Virus record (IMG/VR): IMGVR_UViG_3300035034_002228
Coordinates: 17,796-81,795 of that record
Source of the DNA: a virus
DNA length: 64,000 nucleotides
Reading direction: 5' to 3' (one strand)
In this document: one piece after another, positions 1 through 18,168 of the stretch
How positions within the stretch are numbered: the first letter of the stretch is position 1
Layout: every line of letters starts with the position of its first letter
The notes under the pieces: generated by a model
Told to the model about the DNA's origin: nothing
Seen by the model: only the letters and a program-made list of their open reading frames with translations
Databases searched by the model: none
Made by a program: the position numbers and the translations under genes

Positions 1-989
1 GCAGTTCTACCAGCATTACCGACAACAAAACCGATGTATTAAACCTAGACTACATTGCCCGTTTTCTAGACCGGTTCCCGGAAACTAACACCATCATTGT
101 CAATGGCGGCGACCCATTGATGCTCAAGCCGGATTATTACTGGGACATCCTTAAGCTATTGGAAGAACGGAACATGACGGAAACCATCGTTGGTTTTACC
201 ACCAACCTCTGGGATTTCTACAAGCGCCCTGACAAATGGACCGAACTATTCCGTCATCCCCAGTTCTCTGTGTGCACCTCCTTCAACTACGGCGACAGTC
301 GACGTATCAGTAAGAATCGTGTTTTCACCGAAGCCGATTTCTTGGCCATCAGCGACTTGTTTCTTGAACGTGTGGGTTACCGGCCAGACTTTATTTCCGT
401 CATTGACGAAGACAATCGCGATACCGCCATTGACAATGTCCGATTGGCTAAACGTCTTGGGGTGGAATGCAAACTGAATTTGGCCATGGTCAGTGGTCGC
501 CAAAAAGAACCGTTCTTGATCTCCGACGTACACGAACTTTACCTTGAGATCTACGACGAGGGGCTCATGCCGTGGGAGTACAACACCAAACAGATGGTGA
601 ACGCCCTTAATAGTTACCACACCACTTGCCCAATCAGCCGTGACTGTGACACCGGTATCCGTAATATTCACCCCAATGGCGAGTACTACAGTTGCGGTTC
701 CTTTGGGGACGATCGGAAGTTCCCCATCGATTTCAATAAAGAGATGGAAAGTGACACCATCGCCACGCCCTTGTCCAAAGAGATCACCATGCGGTCCATG
801 CATGACGGCTGTTTTGGGTGTGAGTTGTTTGCTCTGTGTAACGGCTGTCGAAAAACCATCCGTGACACGCAACAAGCAGGGCTGGTTGAAAAACATTGCA
901 CCACAATGACCGCACTCAAACCAAGACTGTTGGAAGCGGCGGAGAAAGAACCATACGCGGTGGGAGGACTGAGTGATAGTATCGATTAA
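1..989 (+). CDS. Radical SAM/SPASM-domain protein, 5' end beyond window
   Basis: The reading frame is open from the left edge (first full codon at base 3), so the start and the expected CxxxCxxC cluster motif lie outside the window. The visible part holds INGGDPL-like sequence (VNGGDPLM, about bases 93-122), which matches the second conserved motif of radical SAM barrels. The C-terminal third is cysteine rich: CPISRDC, a lone CG, then CFGCELFALCNGC, which is the pattern of a SPASM auxiliary Fe-S domain. SPASM enzymes usually modify peptides or proteins, but no substrate is visible. It overlaps the next radical SAM gene by 17 bases, so the two are translationally coupled. Fold is well supported; function is inferred. 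Confidence 0.8.
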   Translation, partial: SSTSITDNKTDVLNLDYIARFLDRFPETNTIIVNGGDPLMLKPDYYWDILKLLEERNMTETIVGFTTNLWDFYKRPDKWTELFRHPQFSVCTSFNYGDSRRISKNRVFTEADFLAISDLFLERVGYRPDFISVIDEDNRDTAIDNVRLAKRLGVECKLNLAMVSGRQKEPFLISDVHELYLEIYDEGLMPWEYNTKQMVNALNSYHTTCPISRDCDTGIRNIHPNGEYYSCGSFGDDRKFPIDFNKEMESDTIATPLSKEITMRSMHDGCFGCELFALCNGCRKTIRDTQQAGLVEKHCTTMTALKPRLLEAAEKEPYAVGGLSDSID

Positions 990-1872
990 CCCGTTGTACC
1001 GGTGTAACTTCCGGTGCAGTAACTGTTACCTAACTGAGGAACAGCTTCGGTCACGCGCTTTGTTGGACTTAGAGCAGTTAGACCGACGCTTGGCGGACAT
1101 ACCCGAGATTGACGCGGTTGAACTTTATGGAGGCGAAGTCACTTTATTAGACGAGAGCTATGTTAACGACCTTAAAGGTGTGGTACGTCGGTATTACGAC
1201 GGTCCGATCTCCGTGACCACCAATAGTTACCAGATGCCGGAATGGATTTATCACGACGACATCGACGTCAACGTCTCTTACGATTTCAATCATCGACCAC
1301 ACCACGAACAGGTGTTCACGAATCTGTTGGTTTTCTCCAGGCCGGTGAACGTTATTGTGTTGGCCACGCCAGAAGTAATGGCCGACGATGTAGACCAACA
1401 GATCGAACTAATACGCTCTCTGGTGAATTTGAACTCGGTTGAAATCAAACCTTACAGTCCAAACCAAGCCAACGATCGCGGGAACCGTAACCAAGACTAC
1501 GTAGAGTACGTCAAACGCTGGATACGCGGTTTCCCTAATAATCGCTTGCGTAACAGCGCCTTGTTGAATGAGGTGGCTGACGGGGTCCGTAATGCCTTCT
1601 CCGACGACCACGTGTACATCACGCCCGAAGGAAAGTTCGGGGTGTTGGAATTCGACGAATTCGACCGCGAATACTTTCTCCAGTTGCCGGATTTTAAAGC
1701 CTACCAGCAATGGACCAAGAACGAAAAACACAAATTGCTATCAGAAATATGTCGGGCGTGTGAGTTTAAAGGTAGGTGTTTGACCGAACATTATCGACGG
1801 AAGGAAGGTCTGGATGGGGAATGTAGTGGGTACAAATCGCTCATCGAGTGGTGGTTGGGTCGAGCGGCTTAA
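973..1872 (+). CDS. Radical SAM protein with C-terminal cysteine cluster
   Basis: This 299-residue protein begins at GTG 973, five bases after a GGAGGA ribosome site inside the upstream gene. It has the complete radical SAM signature CNFRCSNC (C11, C15, C18), which binds the 4Fe-4S cluster, followed by LYGGEVTLL near residue 52 as the GGE motif. The C-terminus carries CRACEFKGRC and a final cysteine, resembling a SPASM or twitch domain. It is a second, divergent radical SAM enzyme in tandem with the first; both probably act on one substrate. No leader-binding RRE domain was recognised. Ribosomal peptide maturation is one possibility, nucleotide or protein modification another. Confidence 0.85.
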   Translation: MIVSINPLYRCNFRCSNCYLTEEQLRSRALLDLEQLDRRLADIPEIDAVELYGGEVTLLDESYVNDLKGVVRRYYDGPISVTTNSYQMPEWIYHDDIDVNVSYDFNHRPHHEQVFTNLLVFSRPVNVIVLATPEVMADDVDQQIELIRSLVNLNSVEIKPYSPNQANDRGNRNQDYVEYVKRWIRGFPNNRLRNSALLNEVADGVRNAFSDDHVYITPEGKFGVLEFDEFDREYFLQLPDFKAYQQWTKNEKHKLLSEICRACEFKGRCLTEHYRRKEGLDGECSGYKSLIEWWLGRAA

Positions 1873-2236
1873 ACGCTTTCATCTCAACGGTGTTAAAACA
1901 GACTACTTTGGGGGACACTACAACCCATGTGTCATAGTCAGCGCGGTAAAAATGATCAATGGCGACTGTGAGGCCCTTGAATTCCCCGCCAAGAGTTATT
2001 TGGTGGGGATCTGCTACGCCGACTACATCGCGCGGTATTTCAACGTGGATTTTTACGAGGTACTTTCCCACCCAACGTTGTTGCACGACGATGAGCATTT
2101 CGTTCCATATAACGAGGCGACAGCCCCGGTTTATGAGACGCTACTCCCAATGGTGTTGTCAAACGACTTCCGCACTACGGAGTTGTACGGTGTCATCATC
2201 GGGTACTGTGAAGAAGAACTGGGACTGACTGAATGA
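1814..2236 (+). CDS. Hypothetical protein in radical SAM cassette
   Basis: A 140-residue protein that I do not recognise. The ATG at 1814 follows AAGGAAGG by about seven bases and lies 59 bases inside the upstream radical SAM gene, so translation is coupled. The sequence is mixed alpha/beta with three cysteines and a run of tyrosines, and shows no membrane segment or signal peptide. It ends eight bases before the next start. Its position between the radical SAM and oxygenase genes suggests an accessory or substrate-binding protein of the same pathway, but no motif proves this. It is too long and too globular to look like a typical ribosomal peptide precursor. Confidence 0.65.
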   Translation: MGNVVGTNRSSSGGWVERLKRFHLNGVKTDYFGGHYNPCVIVSAVKMINGDCEALEFPAKSYLVGICYADYIARYFNVDFYEVLSHPTLLHDDEHFVPYNEATAPVYETLLPMVLSNDFRTTELYGVIIGYCEEELGLTE

Positions 2237-2244
2237 GGTGATGT

Positions 2245-2814
2245 ATGAGCAGTGAGGCAATGTGGCCAACTTTTATCGAAACCCACGATCTTAGTGATGA
2301 TTGCGACTTGGATCAGGCCGTGACTGAATGCTTAATGGTGTCCAATACACTTCAGGACAAAAACAACCTACCCTTAAAAGACTGAGGTACACCCGAACTC
2401 CACCGTATCCACGAAGAGTTAATCATGCCGTTGTTCTACCAACACTTGGAAAGGCGTTACCAATTCAAACCGGAAGGGGTGTCGGTGGCCAATTGGATCT
2501 TCGGTGGGAACGACGGCAGTGGCCTGGAACCCCACATCCATTCGGGTTCGCATTTTACGGCTGTTTTTTACCCAATGGTCGTCGGTGGTAGTATTGTCAT
2601 GGTGGACCCGCGATACAGTGCACAACGTGGATATCCTCGGGATTTCATCGACGGTCATTTTGGGAAGAAGAAGATCAACCCAACCGCCGGTCAATTGGTA
2701 ATCATGCCCAGTTTCCTTGAGCATTACGTCACCGGCTTTAAACAGGGACTGCGTTTGTCATTTGTAAACGACATCATTTTACGCACCGACGACGGTGATG
2801 TCCATTTCGATTGA
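2245..2814 (+). pseudogene. 2OG-Fe(II) oxygenase gene interrupted by in-frame TGA
   Basis: The only well-placed ribosome site (GAGGTGAT) precedes ATG 2245. That frame runs 46 codons to TGA at 2383-2385, then continues in the same frame without a gap into the oxygenase body and ends at 2814. Read through, the product would be 189 residues, a normal size for small phage oxygenases of the 2OG-FeII_Oxy_5 type. Sequence on both sides of the stop looks coding (LPLKD, then GTPELHRIHEE). A TGG to TGA change is the simplest explanation; readthrough, reinitiation at 2425, or a sequencing error are alternatives. Other genes here use TGA as a normal stop, so a changed genetic code is unlikely. Confidence 0.6.
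2425..2814 (+). CDS. 2OG-Fe(II) oxygenase, C-terminal fragment
   Basis: A 129-residue frame downstream of the TGA. It contains the catalytic half of the family: EPHIHSGSHFTAVFYPM (H37, H39), VMVDPRY, then PTAGQLVIMPSFLEHYV with H100 as distal iron ligand, and R110 followed by LSFVN, the usual 2-oxoglutarate salt-bridge region. This matches the short phage/cyanobacterial 2OG-FeII_Oxy_5 families. A weak GAAGAG lies eight bases before ATG 2425, so reinitiation could make a fragment, but it would lack the N-terminal strand region. Substrate unknown; its place in the radical SAM cassette suggests a joint modification pathway. Confidence 0.7.
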   Translation: MPLFYQHLERRYQFKPEGVSVANWIFGGNDGSGLEPHIHSGSHFTAVFYPMVVGGSIVMVDPRYSAQRGYPRDFIDGHFGKKKINPTAGQLVIMPSFLEHYVTGFKQGLRLSFVNDIILRTDDGDVHFD

Positions 2815-2819
2815 CGCTT

Positions 2820-2844
2820 GGCGGACCTTAGGGTCCGTCTTTAT
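2820..2844 (+). terminator. Terminator after oxygenase cassette
   Basis: GCGGACC and GGTCCGT form a seven-pair stem (one G-T pair) around loop TTAG, followed by CTTTAT. It sits six bases after the oxygenase stop and separates the cassette from the virion/lysis genes. Confidence 0.7.
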
Positions 2845-7623: not shown

Positions 7624-9681
7624 ATGACTACACCGCAAAAGATTTCTGATCTGCAAATCGCCGGTCAGGTTAAGAACGACGATTACGTTGAAGTAATCCA
7701 ACGCAATGCCGAGGGCGACTACGTCAACATGCGTTTGGCGATCAATAACCTCAAAGGCAAAGACGGCAAGTCGGCGTTTCAATTGGCCAAGGACGACGGG
7801 TTTACCGGCACCTTTAACGAATGGCTTCTGTCCCTGCGTGGCCCGGAAGGCAAAAACCCGTTTGACATGGCTCAAGCCGGTGGGTTCACCGGTACTCAAG
7901 AAGAGTGGTTGGCGTCTTTGGTAGGGCCTCAGGGCGCTCCGGGTCCCCAAGGTGAAGCAGGTCCGCAAGGCCCGGAAGGTTCTGTGGGACCGACCGGCCC
8001 TGCCGGTCCGAAAGGCGAAGCCGGTGATGCGGGTCCCGTCGGTCCCAAAGGCGAGGTTGGTGACGCTGGCCCAGCGGGCCCGAAAGGCGACGTAGGTCCT
8101 GCGGGACCGGAAGGCCCTCAGGGTGAAACGGGTCCGGCTGGTCCCATCGGACCTGAAGGCCCAGAAGGCCCCCAGGGCACTCAAGGTCTCAAAGGGGACC
8201 AAGGGGAACCTGGCCCGACGGGTCCGACGGGTCCAGTTGGCCCCAAAGGGGATCGTGGTCTGGAAGGTCCAGCAGGTCCGGAAGGTCCGCAAGGCGAACA
8301 GGGCGAAATGGGTCCAGGCATTAGCATTGTCGGGACACTGACGGCTGAATCCGAACTACCCGACACCGGCACGCTGGGTGAAGGTTATTTGGTCAACGGC
8401 GAGTTCTGGGGTTGGACCGGCACTCAGTACGAAAACCTAGGACCCATTCGTGGTCCTAAGGGTGAACAGGGTGTTCAAGGACCCGCTGGACCGGAAGGGC
8501 CCGAAGGCCCGCAAGGCGACATGGGACCCGAAGGTCCGGCTGGCGCTACCGGTCCCAAGGGTGATAAGGGTGACGCTGGCACAGTCGGGCCGAAAGGCGA
8601 CGTAGGCCCTGCCGGCCCTGAGGGTCCCCAGGGTGAACAGGGTGTTCAAGGTGAGAAAGGTGACAGTGGTGACCCCATTCAAATCCTGGGTACCGTCGCC
8701 GATCAATCTCAGCTTCCCTCCACCGGTGTTTCTGCCGGCCAGGGTTACGTCATTGGCACCAATCTGTGGGTGTGGGACGGTGCGGCGTGGTTTAACGCCG
8801 GCAGCTTGAAAGGTCCTCAAGGTGAACAAGGTCCGATGGGCCCTGCCGGTGTCAAGGGTGACGACGGTGCTCCAGGTCCTCAGGGTCCTGAAGGTGCTCA
8901 GGGTCCCCAAGGTAACACCGGCCCTGCCGGTCCGACTGGTCCTAAAGGTGATACTGGCGACGCCGGTCCCGCCGGCCCTGAAGGCCCTGCCGGATCACAA
9001 GGCCCTGCTGGCTTTGATGGCGCCGATGGTCAGTCCGCGTATCAGATTGCCGTGGACAATGGTTTCACAGGCACTGAGGCCGAATGGTTGACCTCACTGG
9101 AAGGCGAAGACGGTGTCGGGTCGGCACTGTCCATCGCGAATAACGGCACGGCTGTTACCGCCGAGGCGAAATCCATCAACTTCAAGGGCGCCACGGTTTC
9201 TGAAACCAACGGTGACGTTACGGTTGAAGTGTCGGCCAGTAGCGGTGGGTCAACAGGCGGTGTAAGCCTCGTACGCAAACGCGCGGTGTTGATGCGCGGG
9301 TCCCTGGAGGCGATTGTCATTGTGGTTGGGTTTGGTTCTCAGACCGACATGGACGCCCTGACCATTGAAAAACTGAACAGCGGCAGTGTGGTACGTCTGG
9401 ACAACAAAGCCGCTGCGCTCCACTTACATTCTGTGACCATATTTTATGATGCAGGATGGAACACCGGTAGCTCGTTCAATCTTCAATTCCCGGACAACTG
9501 GGGTGATGATTTCATGGGCGACATGGTGATCCCCACGTTCCAGCAGTTCTCTCGGTTGAATCCGCCGACACTGCAACCGACGACTTACCAGAACTACGAA
9601 GTCGTTGATGGTTACGTGAATGTTGGTAAAGCCAACGTTAACTCCAGCTACGGATATCACTGGAAGTACAACTTGTCGTAA
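7624..9681 (+). CDS. Collagen-like tail fibre protein
   Basis: A 685-residue fibre. The N-terminus ([20 protein letters not shown]...) resembles the capping domain of other phage collagen-like fibres. Two copies of a [19 protein letters not shown]-type motif follow, then long Gly-X-Y repeats expected to form a triple helix. Two beta modules interrupt the helix ([14 protein letters not shown]..., [14 protein letters not shown]...). A third [19 protein letters not shown] motif precedes a globular C-terminal head from about residue 505, the probable receptor-binding part. AGGAAG precedes ATG 7624. It is the first of three collagen-like genes in this strand-coherent block. Confidence 0.88.
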
Positions 9682-9745: not shown

Positions 9746-10459
9746 ATGTCAAAACTACATTTTCAGGCCACCATTGACCTGAAGAGTGCAATCCCGGATG
9801 GTGAGGCGTGGGTAGTCCAAATTGGCTTTCGGGACGGCGAAGGGTACTTCCGTCCCAGTCAACTCCAGGCGAGCGATGTCATTGTACTGAACACGGGGGC
9901 ACTTGAGCCCGGAACGTACACCCAGTACAAGATCAACGAAGTGATCAATGTCAGCTGGACCGGTGAGATCGAGTTATCGATTCAATACCTAGACGGCAAC
10001 AACAACGACATTGCTAACCCACAACTGGATTACCTGGTTGGCGCGGTAGGTATCGTATCACGTCCCAGCGAACACTTGGGGCTTTTACCAGTCGTGTCGC
10101 CCGATGTTCAGGACATGAGCGACGCGTTCAGTATTTACACGTTGAACCACAACATCGTGAAACTGCTGGACGCACCTCGGTCTGACGGTGGGGGTGGTGG
10201 TGTTGTCCTTAAAACAGCCCAATGGTTGCCCGTTATGGCTGACGGTCGAGCCCCACTCCCAACCGAGCCTCTGGGGGACTTCGTACTGGACATGGGCATG
10301 GCGCATCTGTTGGATGGGTCGGTGGTTGAGTTGTCTGGAGTAAAACCCCAGTTCAATGCCGAAACATCCACATGGTATGCAGTGATCCCCGCAGCAGACA
10401 TTGCTGAACTCCAAGGAATGGTGGGTGCTATCACTGTGTCTTACCTAACCGGTTCTTAA
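9746..10459 (+). CDS. Tail-fibre-associated protein
   Basis: A 237-residue protein lying between a collagen-like fibre gene and the 10492 gene. ATG 9746 follows AAAAAAGGATTG. The first 150 residues are beta-type with a repeated pattern of extended strands (AWVVQIGFRDGEGYF, GEIELSIQYLDGNN). A glycine run, DGGGGGV, near residue 150 links to a smaller C-terminal domain ending GAITVSYLTG. No enzyme motif or membrane segment is visible and I do not recognise the family. Its position and beta composition suggest a fibre tip, adaptor or chaperone. Confidence 0.6.
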   Translation: MSKLHFQATIDLKSAIPDGEAWVVQIGFRDGEGYFRPSQLQASDVIVLNTGALEPGTYTQYKINEVINVSWTGEIELSIQYLDGNNNDIANPQLDYLVGAVGIVSRPSEHLGLLPVVSPDVQDMSDAFSIYTLNHNIVKLLDAPRSDGGGGGVVLKTAQWLPVMADGRAPLPTEPLGDFVLDMGMAHLLDGSVVELSGVKPQFNAETSTWYAVIPAADIAELQGMVGAITVSYLTGS

Positions 10460-11615: not shown

Positions 11616-12383
11616 ATGGCTAAGCGTATTACGGAAATGGGCCCGATTGAACTTCCACTCTCCGGAGAAGAGCTGTTGGAAGTGGTTCAGAACGGTGTCA
11701 ACAAGCGGTTCCCGATCGGGGAACTGACGGTTCAAGGTAACGACGGGCTATCGGCATTCGATGTCGCGGTCCGTGAAGGCTTTGAAGGTACTTTGGAAGA
11801 CTGGTTGGCATCATTGCGCGGCCCAGAAGGACCAGTGGGTCCACGGGGACCACAGGGCGTTGAGGGACCGAAAGGGCCCAAGGGTGACACTGGCAACGAT
11901 GGTCCGGCTGGACCCAAAGGAGACGCAGGGCCGGAAGGACCCCAAGGGGAACCAGGACCCGAAGGACCTGAGGGGCCCAAAGGTGAGAAAGGCGATACCG
12001 GTGATACTGGCCCAACCGGACCTAAGGGCGACAAAGGTGATAAGGGTGATACGGGTGACCCCGGCCCAGTTGGACCTGAGGGACCATCAGGTGGAGGTGG
12101 TGGTAGTAACTTTGTAACCATCCAAGCCACCAGCTGGAGTGCGGGACAGTTTACCTTGCCTGAAGGAGTAACGGTCGAGAAGATCTACTCGGACAGCTCC
12201 CTGCAAATCAACCATGGGCAGAACAAATACCCGAAGGGTTGGTTTGGGTTCATTCGAGAGTCGGACCCTTGGGTAGGTATCATCCCAACCAACGTTCGGA
12301 ACATTCAAATCGTCGATGCGAATACGATCATTATCACAAACGTGTCCAGCTTCGAAATCTTTGATATTTCCATTCAGTTTTAA
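11616..12383 (+). CDS. Short collagen-like tail fibre
   Basis: A 255-residue protein. The N-terminus ([25 protein letters not shown]) is the common capping domain of phage collagen-like fibres. One [19 protein letters not shown] motif leads into about 85 residues of Gly-X-Y repeats rich in [11 protein letters not shown] triplets, then a GGGG hinge and an 85-residue beta domain. GGAGAGATACC precedes ATG 11616. It is a shortened version of the 685-residue fibre with a different head, consistent with an additional host-range fibre. Confidence 0.85.
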
Positions 12384-12399
12384 CACGAGGGACTGATTT

Positions 12400-12912
12400 A
12401 TGATCAACGCGGGGATAAAGATTGCTTCTTTTAATGGCAAGCAGTCATTCAACAGCGAAACCCAGCTTTGGGAAGGCATTGAAGTCAGTGTCAACTACCC
12501 TGGAAAGCAAACGCCGGTGGACAACCCAATACAGATCGGTGACCTGCTCATTGAACCGGGTGGGAGCATCTGGCAAGTTGAGGCGGCGACGGTTCTGGAT
12601 GATGTCGCCGGCGTATTCGAGCTGTCGCTGTCAATGCTGGAAGAAGAAACCACGGACGCGGTCTCACCGGGTCTGGGTACGGTCAACCGAGGTGGTATTG
12701 TAACTCCCAAACAAGGGTATGTGGCACCACATTGGGATTCAACCATCGTCGACGCGAACGTGTCTCGAATTGCCTCCATGATCACCATGGAAAACTACGA
12801 CAAACTGTTTGGTGGTGGTGACGGTAGCGATGCGGGGGATGGATCGACCGATACTGGGCCAGTATGGCTTGGTGTGGTGGACGGCGGTGAACTGGGCAAC
12901 TCAGGAGCATAA
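12400..12912 (+). CDS. Fibre-locus hypothetical protein
   Basis: A 170-residue protein sixteen bases after the short fibre gene and three bases before the giant fibre gene, with GAGGGACTGATTT before ATG 12400. It has a beta-rich N-terminal half (TQLWEGIEVSVNY, IQIGDLLIEPGGSIWQVEA) and a glycine/aspartate-rich linker near residue 140. I do not recognise it. The tight spacing suggests that it is made with the giant fibre and may cap, anchor or fold it. Confidence 0.6.
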   Translation: MINAGIKIASFNGKQSFNSETQLWEGIEVSVNYPGKQTPVDNPIQIGDLLIEPGGSIWQVEAATVLDDVAGVFELSLSMLEEETTDAVSPGLGTVNRGGIVTPKQGYVAPHWDSTIVDANVSRIASMITMENYDKLFGGGDGSDAGDGSTDTGPVWLGVVDGGELGNSGA

Positions 12913-12915
12913 CCC

Positions 12916-15900
12916 ATGTCAGGAAACGAAAGAAGGTATCGGTTCCCTCGCGGTAATACCGAACAAAACAACAGTTATACCGGGTACGATGGGGAAGTCA
13001 CCATCGATACCGAACTCAATCAACTGCGTCGTCACGACGGCGTAACCCCCGGTGGTTTTGTCATCGCCTCCGGCGGTGGCGGTGAGATTGGGGATGTCAG
13101 CGAACTGATCGACACCGGCATTCTTGTCGTTGGTACGCTGTCCACCCCCGACAATCTTCCGGAAGCGTGGGAACATTCCACCGGTGATACATACATCATA
13201 GACACCCACTACTACACCCTGATCGGCAACACCTGGGAAAACCTCGGGTCGTTCCGTGGGGAAGACGGCCTGAACGCGTACGAACTGGCCGTGACCCGTG
13301 ATGGGTATACCGGCACGTATGGTCAGTGGAAAGAAAGCCTGCGTGGACAAGACGGCATTGGCATCAACGTCCGTGGCTCGCTGCCGAATCTTGAAACACT
13401 GGATTTGGTGGAACCGGTCCGGGGTCACGCGTACGTGATCGATCGGAAGATGTACGTTTGGGACACCCAGAAATGGGCCGAGGTGGGGCAAGTTGGTCCC
13501 CCCGGGATGAGCACTTACGAGTTGGCCAAGGTCACCGGTCAAATCGAAGAGTCCACCACCCTGACGCAGTACCTCAACTCCCTCAAAGGGCAAAGTGCGT
13601 TTCAGCTGGCGCGGGAGATTGAAGAAATCCCGTCGAACTGGGGCCTTGAAGATTACCTCGAATCCCTGCAAGGCAAAAGCGCGTACGACATGGCCGTGGA
13701 AAACGGCTACGTTGGGACGATTGACGACTACCTTGCCTCGCTGGTAGGACCTGAGGGTCCCCAGGGTCCCCGTGGTCTACGCGGTGATAAGGGTGAACAA
13801 GCCAACGCCATTCAGGTGTTGGGTAAGGTGGTGTCTTATCTGGACCTTCCAACCGAGGGCGTGTCTCCAGGTGACGCGTATTTCATCCAGAAGAACCTCT
13901 GGGTCTATACAGGCTCGCGTTTTGAAGACCTGGGTGAGATTGTAGGGCCACAAGGTGAACAGGGCTTACAAGGACCCTCAGGCCCTCCTGGGGACCAAGG
14001 TCCCGAAGGGCTGAGCGCGTACGAAGTGGCCATCAACAACTACCTGTTCGACGGCGACGAAGAAGCGTGGATTGCGTCCCTGGAAGGGAAGAGCGCCTAC
14101 GAGATTGCCAAAGAGTTCGACTACGGTAATGAGATCGAAAGCGAGGAACAGTGGCTGGAGTCATTGAAAGGCAAGAACTCGTATGAGACCGCCATTGAAC
14201 TTGGCTTGGTGGCTACGGTTGAAGAGTGGAATGAGAAGATGCGTGGTCCGGAAGGGCCGATGGGTCCTCAGGGTCCCATGGGTCGCAGTCTGGAGATTTC
14301 CGGCTACGTTCAAGACCCCGATGCCCAACCACTGCCAACAGACGTCTCCCCGTACACCGCGTACGTGGTTCAAGATCACCTACACATGTTCACCGGCACC
14401 GAATGGGTCGACCTTGGACGCTTTGAAGGTCCCAAGGGGGACAAAGGCGATAAGGGTGACAAGGGCGATACCGGTGAGAAAGGCGAGGTTGGTACCGGCA
14501 TTCAGGTAAAAGGCGCCGTAGCCTCTGAATTGGCCCTACCCAACATCCAAGACTACGTCGACGGTGACTGTTTCTTCGTTGAGAAGAACCTCTACGTGAA
14601 AACCGGCGGTCTGTGGTTGAACGTTGGGGAAGTGAAAGGCGATCAAGGGGAAAAGGGCGAACAAGGTGACCAAGGTCTGACTGGCGACCGTGGACCACGT
14701 GGCACCAACGGTCGAAACGGTCGCAGTGGTCGGAACGGCCGCAACGGCTTGCATGGTTGGAACGGGCGTAATGGCCGGACTGGTCGTCAAGGTCCCATGG
14801 GCGCGCCCGGTCCGCGTGGGTTTACCGGTTCGCCGGGCGCGTCCATTAAAGTGAAAGGGTCGGTACCGGCGGTGAGCTTCTTGACCGACCAAGGGAACGA
14901 GGTCGGTGATGCGTACATCGTCGAGAACGAGTTCCATGTGTGGGATGGCACACAGTGGACCAACGTAGGATTCCTACAGGGCCCTCGCGGTGTGGACGGC
15001 CCCCGTGGTCTGCAGGGTCCCGTTGGACCGATGGGGGTGAAAGGCGACCAAGGCGTTCCTGGCCCACAAGGCATCGAAGGGGTGCAAGGCTCGGACGGTC
15101 GTCAAGGTCCCATGGGCCTGTCTATCAATGTCCTGGGTCGTGTCTCTACCTTTGCGAGTCTGGACGCCAAGTCCCGACCGTCGTTTGGCGACGCGTACAT
15201 CGTCGACGATACCGAGGGTGAGGTTTACGCGTGGGACGGCGAAGCGTGGCAGGGTCTGGGTCCGGTCCAAGGTCCCGAAGGACCTCCTGGTCCAATCCCT
15301 ACCCCACGTGGTGTAGCGGTTGACCCGGATTACCTGTTCAATCAAATCCTGAACCCGAAGAAAGGCGATTTCTACACCATCGCGGGTGAAGCCTGGATTC
15401 ATGACGGTGAGACGTTCATCAACGTCGGTCAGTGGACCGGACCCGAAGGTCCCAAGGGCGACAAAGGTGATCAAGGCGAAAAGGGTGACGCGGGGGATGA
15501 CGGCCACGGCATCATCGTTCTTGGCGAACTGGGTGATGTAAACGACCTACCCTTGACCTCCAGCCGTGGGGATTTCTACGTGGTCACCGGTGACCTGTGG
15601 GGCTGGGACGGCGCCCGTTGGGTTAACTACGGTCCTTTCCGTGGTCCCACCGGACCGGCTGGACCAAAAGGCATTGATGGCATCGACGGTGTGGATGGCA
15701 TCGACGGTGAACAAGGCCCGCAGGGTGAACGCGGTCTGCAAGGCGAAACCGCCGCCAGCATCAAGGTACTGGGCTCGAAAGCCACCGTGGGCGAACTGCC
15801 GGACGGCAGCACCAGCGAGGTCGGTGATGCGTACATCGTCGGTGACCGATTCTACGTGTGGAACAGTGCCATTTGGGAAGACGTTGGCTTCCTGCAAGGC

Positions 15901-17556: not shown

Positions 17557-18168
17557 ATGGACACTTACATTAATTTGACAACGGGACAATACCCACTGAC
17601 CTTGGAGGAAATACGGCGAGAGCTTTTGACCGTATCCCTACCAAAAGCCCCCACCGAGGAACAGCTTCGACGGTGTGGCTATGGGTTGGTGAAACCGACC
17701 AAACGCCCCGCCGGTACCAACGTGGTGGGAACAGCCCCACGGTATCAGAACGGGCAGTTTTACCAAACTTGGGAGGTGGTGGAGAGTGCGGATTTGGGCG
17801 AGTGGCAACAAGAGCTTAAACGGTTGCTGGATACGACCTACAACACCCTGTTGACTCAGGGATGGACGTACGGTACTCACCAAGTCGACCTTGTCAACAG
17901 TGAGGAACTGAATTGGTTTTTCTTAGAGTGCTTATCGTCACAAGACGATCACTCGGACGAGCCGGTTTTGTTTTATACGCCCAATGGCGATGCGGTGGAG
18001 TTTGACTGGGAGACAGGATTGCAATTCGTCAAGGACGCGGTGCGGTATCGACGTTCGTTGAAACGCGGGTACCACCACGGACTTACGCACATTCGTGAGT
18101 GCGAGTGTGTGGCGGATTGCAAATCTGTTAAACGCAAGTTAGAAACAAAGGAAGTCTTCCAATGTTAG
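17557..18168 (+). CDS. Tail fibre assembly-like protein
   Basis: A 203-residue protein. The N-terminal 80 residues follow the pattern of phage fibre-assembly or DUF4376-type proteins: YINLTTGQYPLTLEEIRREL, then GYGLVKPTKRP, then APRYQNGQFYQTWEVVE. The C-terminal half differs and includes a cysteine-rich end (ECECVADCKSVK), which might bind metal. It follows the giant fibre gene and overlaps the glycine-rich adhesin by seven bases. Such proteins usually help trimerise or fold adjacent fibres. The start at 17557 has only a weak ribosome site. Confidence 0.65.
   Translation: MDTYINLTTGQYPLTLEEIRRELLTVSLPKAPTEEQLRRCGYGLVKPTKRPAGTNVVGTAPRYQNGQFYQTWEVVESADLGEWQQELKRLLDTTYNTLLTQGWTYGTHQVDLVNSEELNWFFLECLSSQDDHSDEPVLFYTPNGDAVEFDWETGLQFVKDAVRYRRSLKRGYHHGLTHIRECECVADCKSVKRKLETKEVFQC

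Follow-up and report, generated by a model that had tools for sequence, protein, structure and literature searches.

A probable RiPP-like maturation cassette for the Cys-His tail of a protein encoded beside fibre genes in phages and predatory bacteria

The genes described here lie at the left edge of a 64,000-nucleotide stretch (the window) of the virus record IMGVR_UViG_3300035034_002228 and continue beyond it, and among known systems they most resemble those in which radical S-adenosylmethionine (rSAM) enzymes act on proteins and peptides. anSME oxidises Cys or Ser in the motif C/S-x-[AP]-x-R. DarE, DynA and PapB, the maturases of darobactin, dynobactin and ranthipeptides, are rSAM enzymes with a SPASM domain, encoded beside a ribosomal substrate in which one short stretch is invariant; ranthipeptides contain CX3D repeats. 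In proteusin-type clusters, such as that of polytheonamide, several rSAM enzymes and an oxygenase tailor one ribosomal product. Fibre systems provide a further comparison: the S74 fibres of Bdellovibrio are known prey-recognition adhesins (PMC10769870), and rSAM cassettes that differ between two related phages are reported inside pelagimyophage host-recognition clusters (PMC7029224). Beyond these pelagimyophage cassettes and scattered annotation of individual enzymes (PMC8066314, PMC11898562, PMC5468394), no description of the present system was found in the open-licence papers searched for phage RiPPs or for the tail motif.

The window is G000:C1:17796-81795 of the 81,795-base record (window coordinates equal G000 coordinates minus 17795). 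A first-pass annotation had seen in its first 2814 bases two rSAM genes, a small gene and an oxygenase gene, with no visible precursor peptide, and had called for the sequence left of base 1. The 17,795 bases preceding the window (left part read as L006, G000:C1:1-19999) contained three further rSAM genes, which makes five in the whole record by record search, together with the likely substrate gene, PREC. The impression of two rSAM genes without a precursor arose because the window edge cuts the cassette; within the window there is indeed no precursor, and some 6 kb separate the PREC gene from base 1 on the left side. The best explanation of the locus, which we consider probable, is a RiPP-like pathway (RiPP, ribosomally synthesised and post-translationally modified peptide) that modifies the C-terminal tail of PREC, a fibre-associated recognition protein. 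On this reading, the last third of the maturation cassette, its 3' side, probably lies in the window. The genes and hairpins are as follows:

G000:C1:7439-9127, + strand, tail protein (PHROG match, 1.6e-117)
G000:C1:9141-10070, + strand, virion structural protein (PHROG match, 4e-97)
G000:C1 ~10057-10090, hairpin with T-run
G000:C1:10149-11285, + strand, rSAM enzyme S1, 378 aa
G000:C1:11287-11829, + strand, PREC, candidate substrate, 180 aa, tail encoded at 11779-11826
G000:C1:11826-12896, 12871-13917 and 13920-14954, + strand, U367, three paralogous genes
G000:C1:14964-15656, + strand, U238
G000:C1:15649-16653, + strand, rSAM enzyme S2
G000:C1:16650-17633, + strand, rSAM enzyme S3
G000:C1 ~17640-17672, hairpin between S3 and S4
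G000:C1:17744-18784, + strand, rSAM enzyme S4, 346 aa, full SPASM; starts 51 bases left of the window, window 1-989 being its 3' part
Window 973-1872, + strand, rSAM enzyme S5, 299 aa, CX3CX2C and a reduced auxiliary-cluster site
Window 1814-2236, + strand, U140, small accessory protein, 140 aa (phrog_20737, 1.6e-14)
Window 2245-2814, + strand, 2-oxoglutarate (2OG)-Fe(II) oxygenase gene, interrupted (PF13759, 2OG-FeII_Oxy_5, 1.6e-7)
Window 2820-2839, + strand, hairpin with a T-rich stretch after it, at the end of the cassette

PREC of the window phage ends in CHSKCHGNCHSSRNRR-COOH; its tail consists of three CHxS units and ends in SRGRR. The tail consensus in 131 non-redundant PREC proteins was [VIY]CH[SAT]SCH[ST]SCH[GST]SRGRR, and the rest of the protein varied. 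In this set the tail Ser and Gly positions were 77-89% conserved, although the search pattern did not enforce them. The search was made with a DNA pattern that is blind to neighbouring genes and has no SAM requirement. It matched at least 119 stretches in viral contigs and 19 in 11.3 million genome contigs; in the latter collection fewer than one match was expected by chance (our own estimate, about 43 bits, uniform bases), and three of the 19 matches were set aside because they do not end an open reading frame (ORF). Altogether 172 ORFs ended exactly in the tail, and nearly all of their loci contained one or more further families of the cassette or of fibres. No matches were obtained when short tail peptides were used in tblastn against phages, which we attribute to low-complexity filtering. 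Variant tails were found in viruses (CHSNCHGSCHGSI, CHYSCFTSSCHFSRGRR, CHSSCHSSHSSRNRR) and in bacteria (CHSNHCSHSNHGSRGRR, CHGNFPPPCHGSRGRR, CHSSHSSHSSHSSRGRR); all keep the first CH pair, and later Cys residues can be lost while His remains. A PREC variant with four CH units, CHSNCHSNCHSNCHTNRSRR, is encoded at L049:8108-8878 (- strand); the cassette there includes seven rSAM genes, a part of which belong to unusual subtypes. In marine phages and in a Rhodobacteraceae metagenome-assembled genome, two tandem PREC genes (~127 aa each) directly follow a very large tail-fibre gene, and S3-type rSAM genes adjoin them instead of S1 (L042, L070, L084, L147, L151, L156 and others).

An unbiased search seeded with S4 yielded 80 viral loci (350 candidate stretches were collected in all). 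A whole S1 gene was present in 65 of the 80. The Cys-His tail was encoded in 59 of these 65, in its exact form in 46 and as a variant in 13, and was missing from 6. All but one of the six tail-less loci were fragments with no more than 4.3 kb remaining after S1. PREC usually follows S1 directly, the median distance between the end of S1 and the end of PREC being 593 bases. Among cultured phages the cassette was found in Atu_ph07, FLC6, FLC8, SURPRISE13, pPa_SNUABM_DT01 and Phosso, and a protein with the same tail follows S1 in Atu_ph07 (gp170), FLC6 (gp72), SURPRISE13 (072), pPa_SNUABM_DT01 (gp65) and Phosso (289). Atu_ph07 and Phosso are jumbo phages unrelated to the phiKZ-like lineage of jumbo phages. 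With the more than 100 IMG/VR contigs and, in all, hundreds of environmental viral stretches that carry the cassette, and with its occurrence in predatory bacteria, the co-occurrence in related genomes on which the first-pass annotation had staked its proposal was borne out. To our knowledge, a cassette of rSAM/SPASM enzymes and 2OG oxygenase is outside the core phiKZ gene content. That PREC is the substrate of the cassette is well supported, and we hold it to be very probable; tailoring of a peptide or protein, with a phage protein among the candidate substrates, had been anticipated from the window and is the probable function.

Two of the five rSAM groups, which were distinguished by motif, are represented in the window, and both gave Pfam Radical_SAM matches over the cut-off (S4, 8e-11; S5, 8e-7, just over). 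SPASM domains had been assigned to both proteins. In S4 the CX3CX2C site and the full SPASM cysteine set were invariant in 12 relatives; in S5 CX3CX2C was invariant in the family alignment, but the auxiliary site was a reduced CX2CX5C...C, invariant in 14 relatives. S1 has CX3CX2C and a full SPASM cysteine set, both invariant in its family alignment. S2 and S3 of the window phage contain CX3CX2C, their SPASM cysteines being judged from one sequence. The interrupted oxygenase matched PF13759 with 32.1 bits (cut-off 27); the interruption is evident from translation across the stop and from intact homologues of about 187 aa. Several cassettes have two or more 2OG oxygenases. Many cassettes open with a cupin gene with Cupin_2 and JmjC_2 matches over the cut-offs; the window phage lacks a cupin at this position. 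The JmjC_2/cupin fold includes Arg and His protein hydroxylases. In some cassettes an rSAM protein with a weak B12-binding match was observed (family c15, 15 loci; L242:3672-5411, L261:3569-5281), and the cassettes of the Burkholderia phages FLC6 and SURPRISE13 enclose two genes annotated as dihydrofolate reductase (L016:14216-15429, L019:14001-15178).

The closest characterised models of S1 were anSME (5e-18), DarE (7e-16) and DynA (3e-13). Its profile aligned along its length, SPASM domain included, with the anSME crystal structures (PDB 4k36-4k39), but S1 scored 65 bits against the cut-off of 349 for TIGR03942. Because every family cut-off was missed, S1 is described as working like these enzymes and not as a member of their families. 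The last unit of the PREC tail, C-H-x-[SA]-R, resembles the anSME motif. Formation of formylglycine by S1, with CHxSR as a sulfatase-type motif, is possible; it is not claimed, because tails of the CHGSI type lack SRGRR. Unlike anSME, the cassette has a C-terminal tail as its presumed substrate, contains no sulfatase and brings several rSAM enzymes together. As in the DarE, DynA and PapB systems, a SPASM rSAM enzyme is found alongside a ribosomal substrate that has a short invariant stretch, and the spacing of the PREC cysteines (i, i+4, i+8) resembles the CX3D repeats of ranthipeptides, but all scores were far below the family cut-offs, PREC is folded and fibre-linked, and export or protease genes are absent from the cassette. 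In having multiple rSAM enzymes and an oxygenase for one ribosomal product it is similar to proteusin-type clusters; it differs in that no leader or protease was found here, and in its context of virions and predator fibres. The PREC tail is a conserved core-like segment of a ribosomal product encoded adjacent to the enzymes, as in RiPP loci. A dedicated protease or exporter, usual although not universal for RiPPs, was not found among the recurrent cassette families. The cassette thus works like a RiPP/SPASM pathway without the usual leader, protease and exporter.

AlphaFold2, run with a 61-sequence alignment on a family member (L115, not the copy of the window phage), predicted a confident PREC domain at residues 10-174 (mean predicted local distance difference test score, pLDDT, 87.8 overall) and a disordered or flexible tail (pLDDT about 54). 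Because of this domain PREC is regarded as a folded protein whose end is flexible and conserved, and not as a leader with a core peptide. The body of PREC diverged faster than S1 in 99-100% of pairs and outpaced both S1 and U238 at every distance; in the closest class the identities were 88% for S1, 68% for U238 and 61% for the PREC body. Such rapid divergence fits the expectation for a recognition part, while the tail stays unchanged. Foldseek found no solved relative of PREC in the PDB; among viral models it retrieved Atu_ph07 gp170 and, from Myoviridae sp. ctijX18, three proteins of larger size. The predicted fold of U238 was also confident, and Foldseek against the PDB returned no known relative of it. 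Sequence profiles of PREC, U238 and U367 had no significant match in the PDB, and profile comparison indicated that U238 and U367 are unrelated. After PREC, U367 occurs in three tandem divergent copies in the window phage and mostly as one copy in other cassettes.

In the window phage the cassette follows the tail and virion protein genes, and in marine phages it follows large tail fibres. The Atu_ph07 virion protein clusters detected by mass spectrometry include coding sequences (CDS) 170-215 (PMC6102473); gp170 is PREC, and the numbering was verified with gp215 (major capsid), 198 (portal) and 204 (prohead core). The pelagimyophage cassettes are comparable in that rSAM genes occur among the tail-fibre genes; the substrate protein, the cassette composition and the wider distribution are not described in the passages of PMC7029224 consulted. 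Of 291 Bdellovibrionota genomes sampled, 13 encode PREC; the cassettes are chromosomal and have housekeeping genes in the flanks. An S74-domain fibre gene and a small gene, c79, adjoin the cassette in G001, G002, G003, G005, G088, G221, G230, G238 and G007 (L157), the nine genomes with enough flanking sequence. All five predator fibre genes tested were over the Pfam cut-off for S74, and three of them also for the N-terminal methylation motif of type IV pilins; others showed a prepilin-like start by eye or pattern, and two are cut by the edge of the stretch. A type IV pilin N-terminus is thereby visible in most of the nine genomes. The phage fibre genes tested with Pfam gave no S74 match. The Bdellovibrio MAT fibres (PMC10769870) are likewise prey-recognition fibres of the phage-tail-fibre type and have the same S74 domain, but the genes found here begin with type IV pilin N-termini and have an rSAM cassette at their side, and the terms 'pilin' and 'radical SAM' are absent from that paper. 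A location of PREC on the fibre or virion is likely.

Fusions of a type IV pilin-like N-terminus to the S74 chaperone domain were observed beside the cassette at L240:4056-5243, L241:12655-13692, L244:8548-12216, L254:18132-19325, L257:683-1783 and L260:1019-2110. In several predators a 100-132 aa protein with an Arg-Arg (twin-arginine-like) N-terminus is encoded between the pilin-S74 gene and the cassette (L240:3673-4071, L241:14431-14733, L254:17764-18144, L257:235-603, L258:19000-19368, L260:2190-2558).

Gene content, the conserved tail, co-occurrence, the predicted fold and the proximity of fibre and pilin-fibre genes lead us to infer a pathway in which S1 would most likely engage the PREC tail first and modify a Cys or His. 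S2-S5 and the 2OG/cupin oxygenases might then modify Cys, His and/or Arg side chains further. The finished PREC would sit on the virion beside the tail fibres and, once mounted, may take part in host recognition or adhesion; predatory bacteria would use the same module beside a pilin-S74 fibre. A role of PREC in host recognition is plausible, with the chances about even. Several observations weigh against this pathway. All Cys except the first can be lost from the tail (CHSSHSSHSSHSSRGRR, also CHGNFPPPCHGSRGRR), and some phage tails terminate in CHGSI and not in SRGRR; therefore one Cys chemistry cannot account for every case. The fold of PREC resembles no known adhesin in the PDB or among the viral models searched with Foldseek. 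The assignment of gp170 to the detected virion proteins depends on its being the first CDS of the cluster, that is, on the cluster boundary as given in the Atu_ph07 paper. Individual rSAM enzymes could differ in substrate. Finally, no match to a RiPP recognition element or PqqD was found in Pfam or NCBIfam; for this reason, and because a folded domain replaces the leader, the cassette is called RiPP-like and not a RiPP member.

The strongest rival is that the tail is an assembly or anchoring device, its modification serving to cross-link or anchor PREC, or else the fibre, on the virion or pilus while the variable body contacts the host. An invariant tail on a variable body is the reverse of what would be expected of a receptor-contacting tail, and conserved ends of fibre proteins are often attachment ends. 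However, no conserved partner site was identified, and one and the same tail would need a matching docking site on fibres as dissimilar as PHROG tail proteins, marine fibres and pilin-S74 proteins; we regard anchoring as unlikely, yet worth keeping in view. A classical RiPP, whose tail is cleaved off as a small bioactive peptide against the host, competing phages or bacteria, could explain why SPASM rSAM and 2OG enzymes accompany a gene whose product has a conserved core at its C-terminus, and why S1 scores against RiPP maturases. It is improbable, since the recurrent cassette families include no peptidase, transporter or immunity gene, the N-terminal part of PREC is a folded domain of ~165 residues and not a short leader, and the linkage to fibre genes persists in phages and predators.

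Slightly less probable again is an unmodified metal site with His/Cys ligands, the enzymes serving otherwise, for example in the synthesis of a cofactor or the modification of the fibre itself. The His residues are conserved as strongly as the Cys residues and persist where Cys is lost, and His-rich metal sites occur in phage spike tips; but in nearly all loci the S1 and PREC genes lie directly side by side, and the enzymes accompany PREC in phages and bacteria alike. Modification of DNA or nucleotides, or a viperin-like antiviral nucleotide chemistry, seems very remote. The rSAM cores gave weak, partial pVip matches in PADLOC (E 1e-8 to 3e-4), but these covered the rSAM core only, the best-scoring models are SPASM maturases that act on proteins or peptides, and the linkage is to fibres and pilins. 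A viperin or defence function was accordingly rejected (31.6 bits against a cut-off of 180). DNA as a substrate, which had been among the options raised at first, was rejected as unsupported, no DNA-modification genes recurring in the cassette.

Compared with these rivals, the RiPP-like modification of the PREC tail is preferred. Phage rSAM genes are usually listed as isolated auxiliaries; here they appear to form one conserved pathway with an identifiable substrate. We propose, tentatively and at somewhat less than even chances, that a cassette of five or more rSAM and oxygenase enzymes makes a new post-translationally modified adhesive tail beside phage tail fibres or pilin-derived predator fibres, in which chemistry beyond the 20 amino acids helps to recognise or grip the host or prey. 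Its occurrence in phages and predators points to a new way of making host-recognition parts. If this is true, some phage host-recognition parts bear elaborate chemistry that cannot be read from sequence, and predatory bacteria employ the same chemistry.

The coupling of the window genes is real, because the S4/S5 and S5/U140 ORFs overlap, and all four same-strand ORFs reported for positions 1-2814 were present. The ORF previously read as the 2OG-Fe(II) oxygenase does belong to that family; it is the 3' part (2425-2814) of a gene whose start is at 2245 and whose reading frame is broken by a TGA at 2383-2385. This in-frame TGA may stem from an error in sequencing, from recent loss of the gene or from a genuine split. 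The terminator proposed to close the cassette corresponds to the hairpin at 2820-2839, whose fold was unusually stable (z -3.7; 0 of 200 shuffles equally stable), although a generic terminator scan at this position did no better than chance. Homologues of U140 adjoin S5 or S2 in phage and bacterial cassettes, and one closes many complete cassettes. Downstream of the cassette, among the tail-region genes, a collagen-like protein with Gly-x-y repeats is encoded at window 7624-9681.

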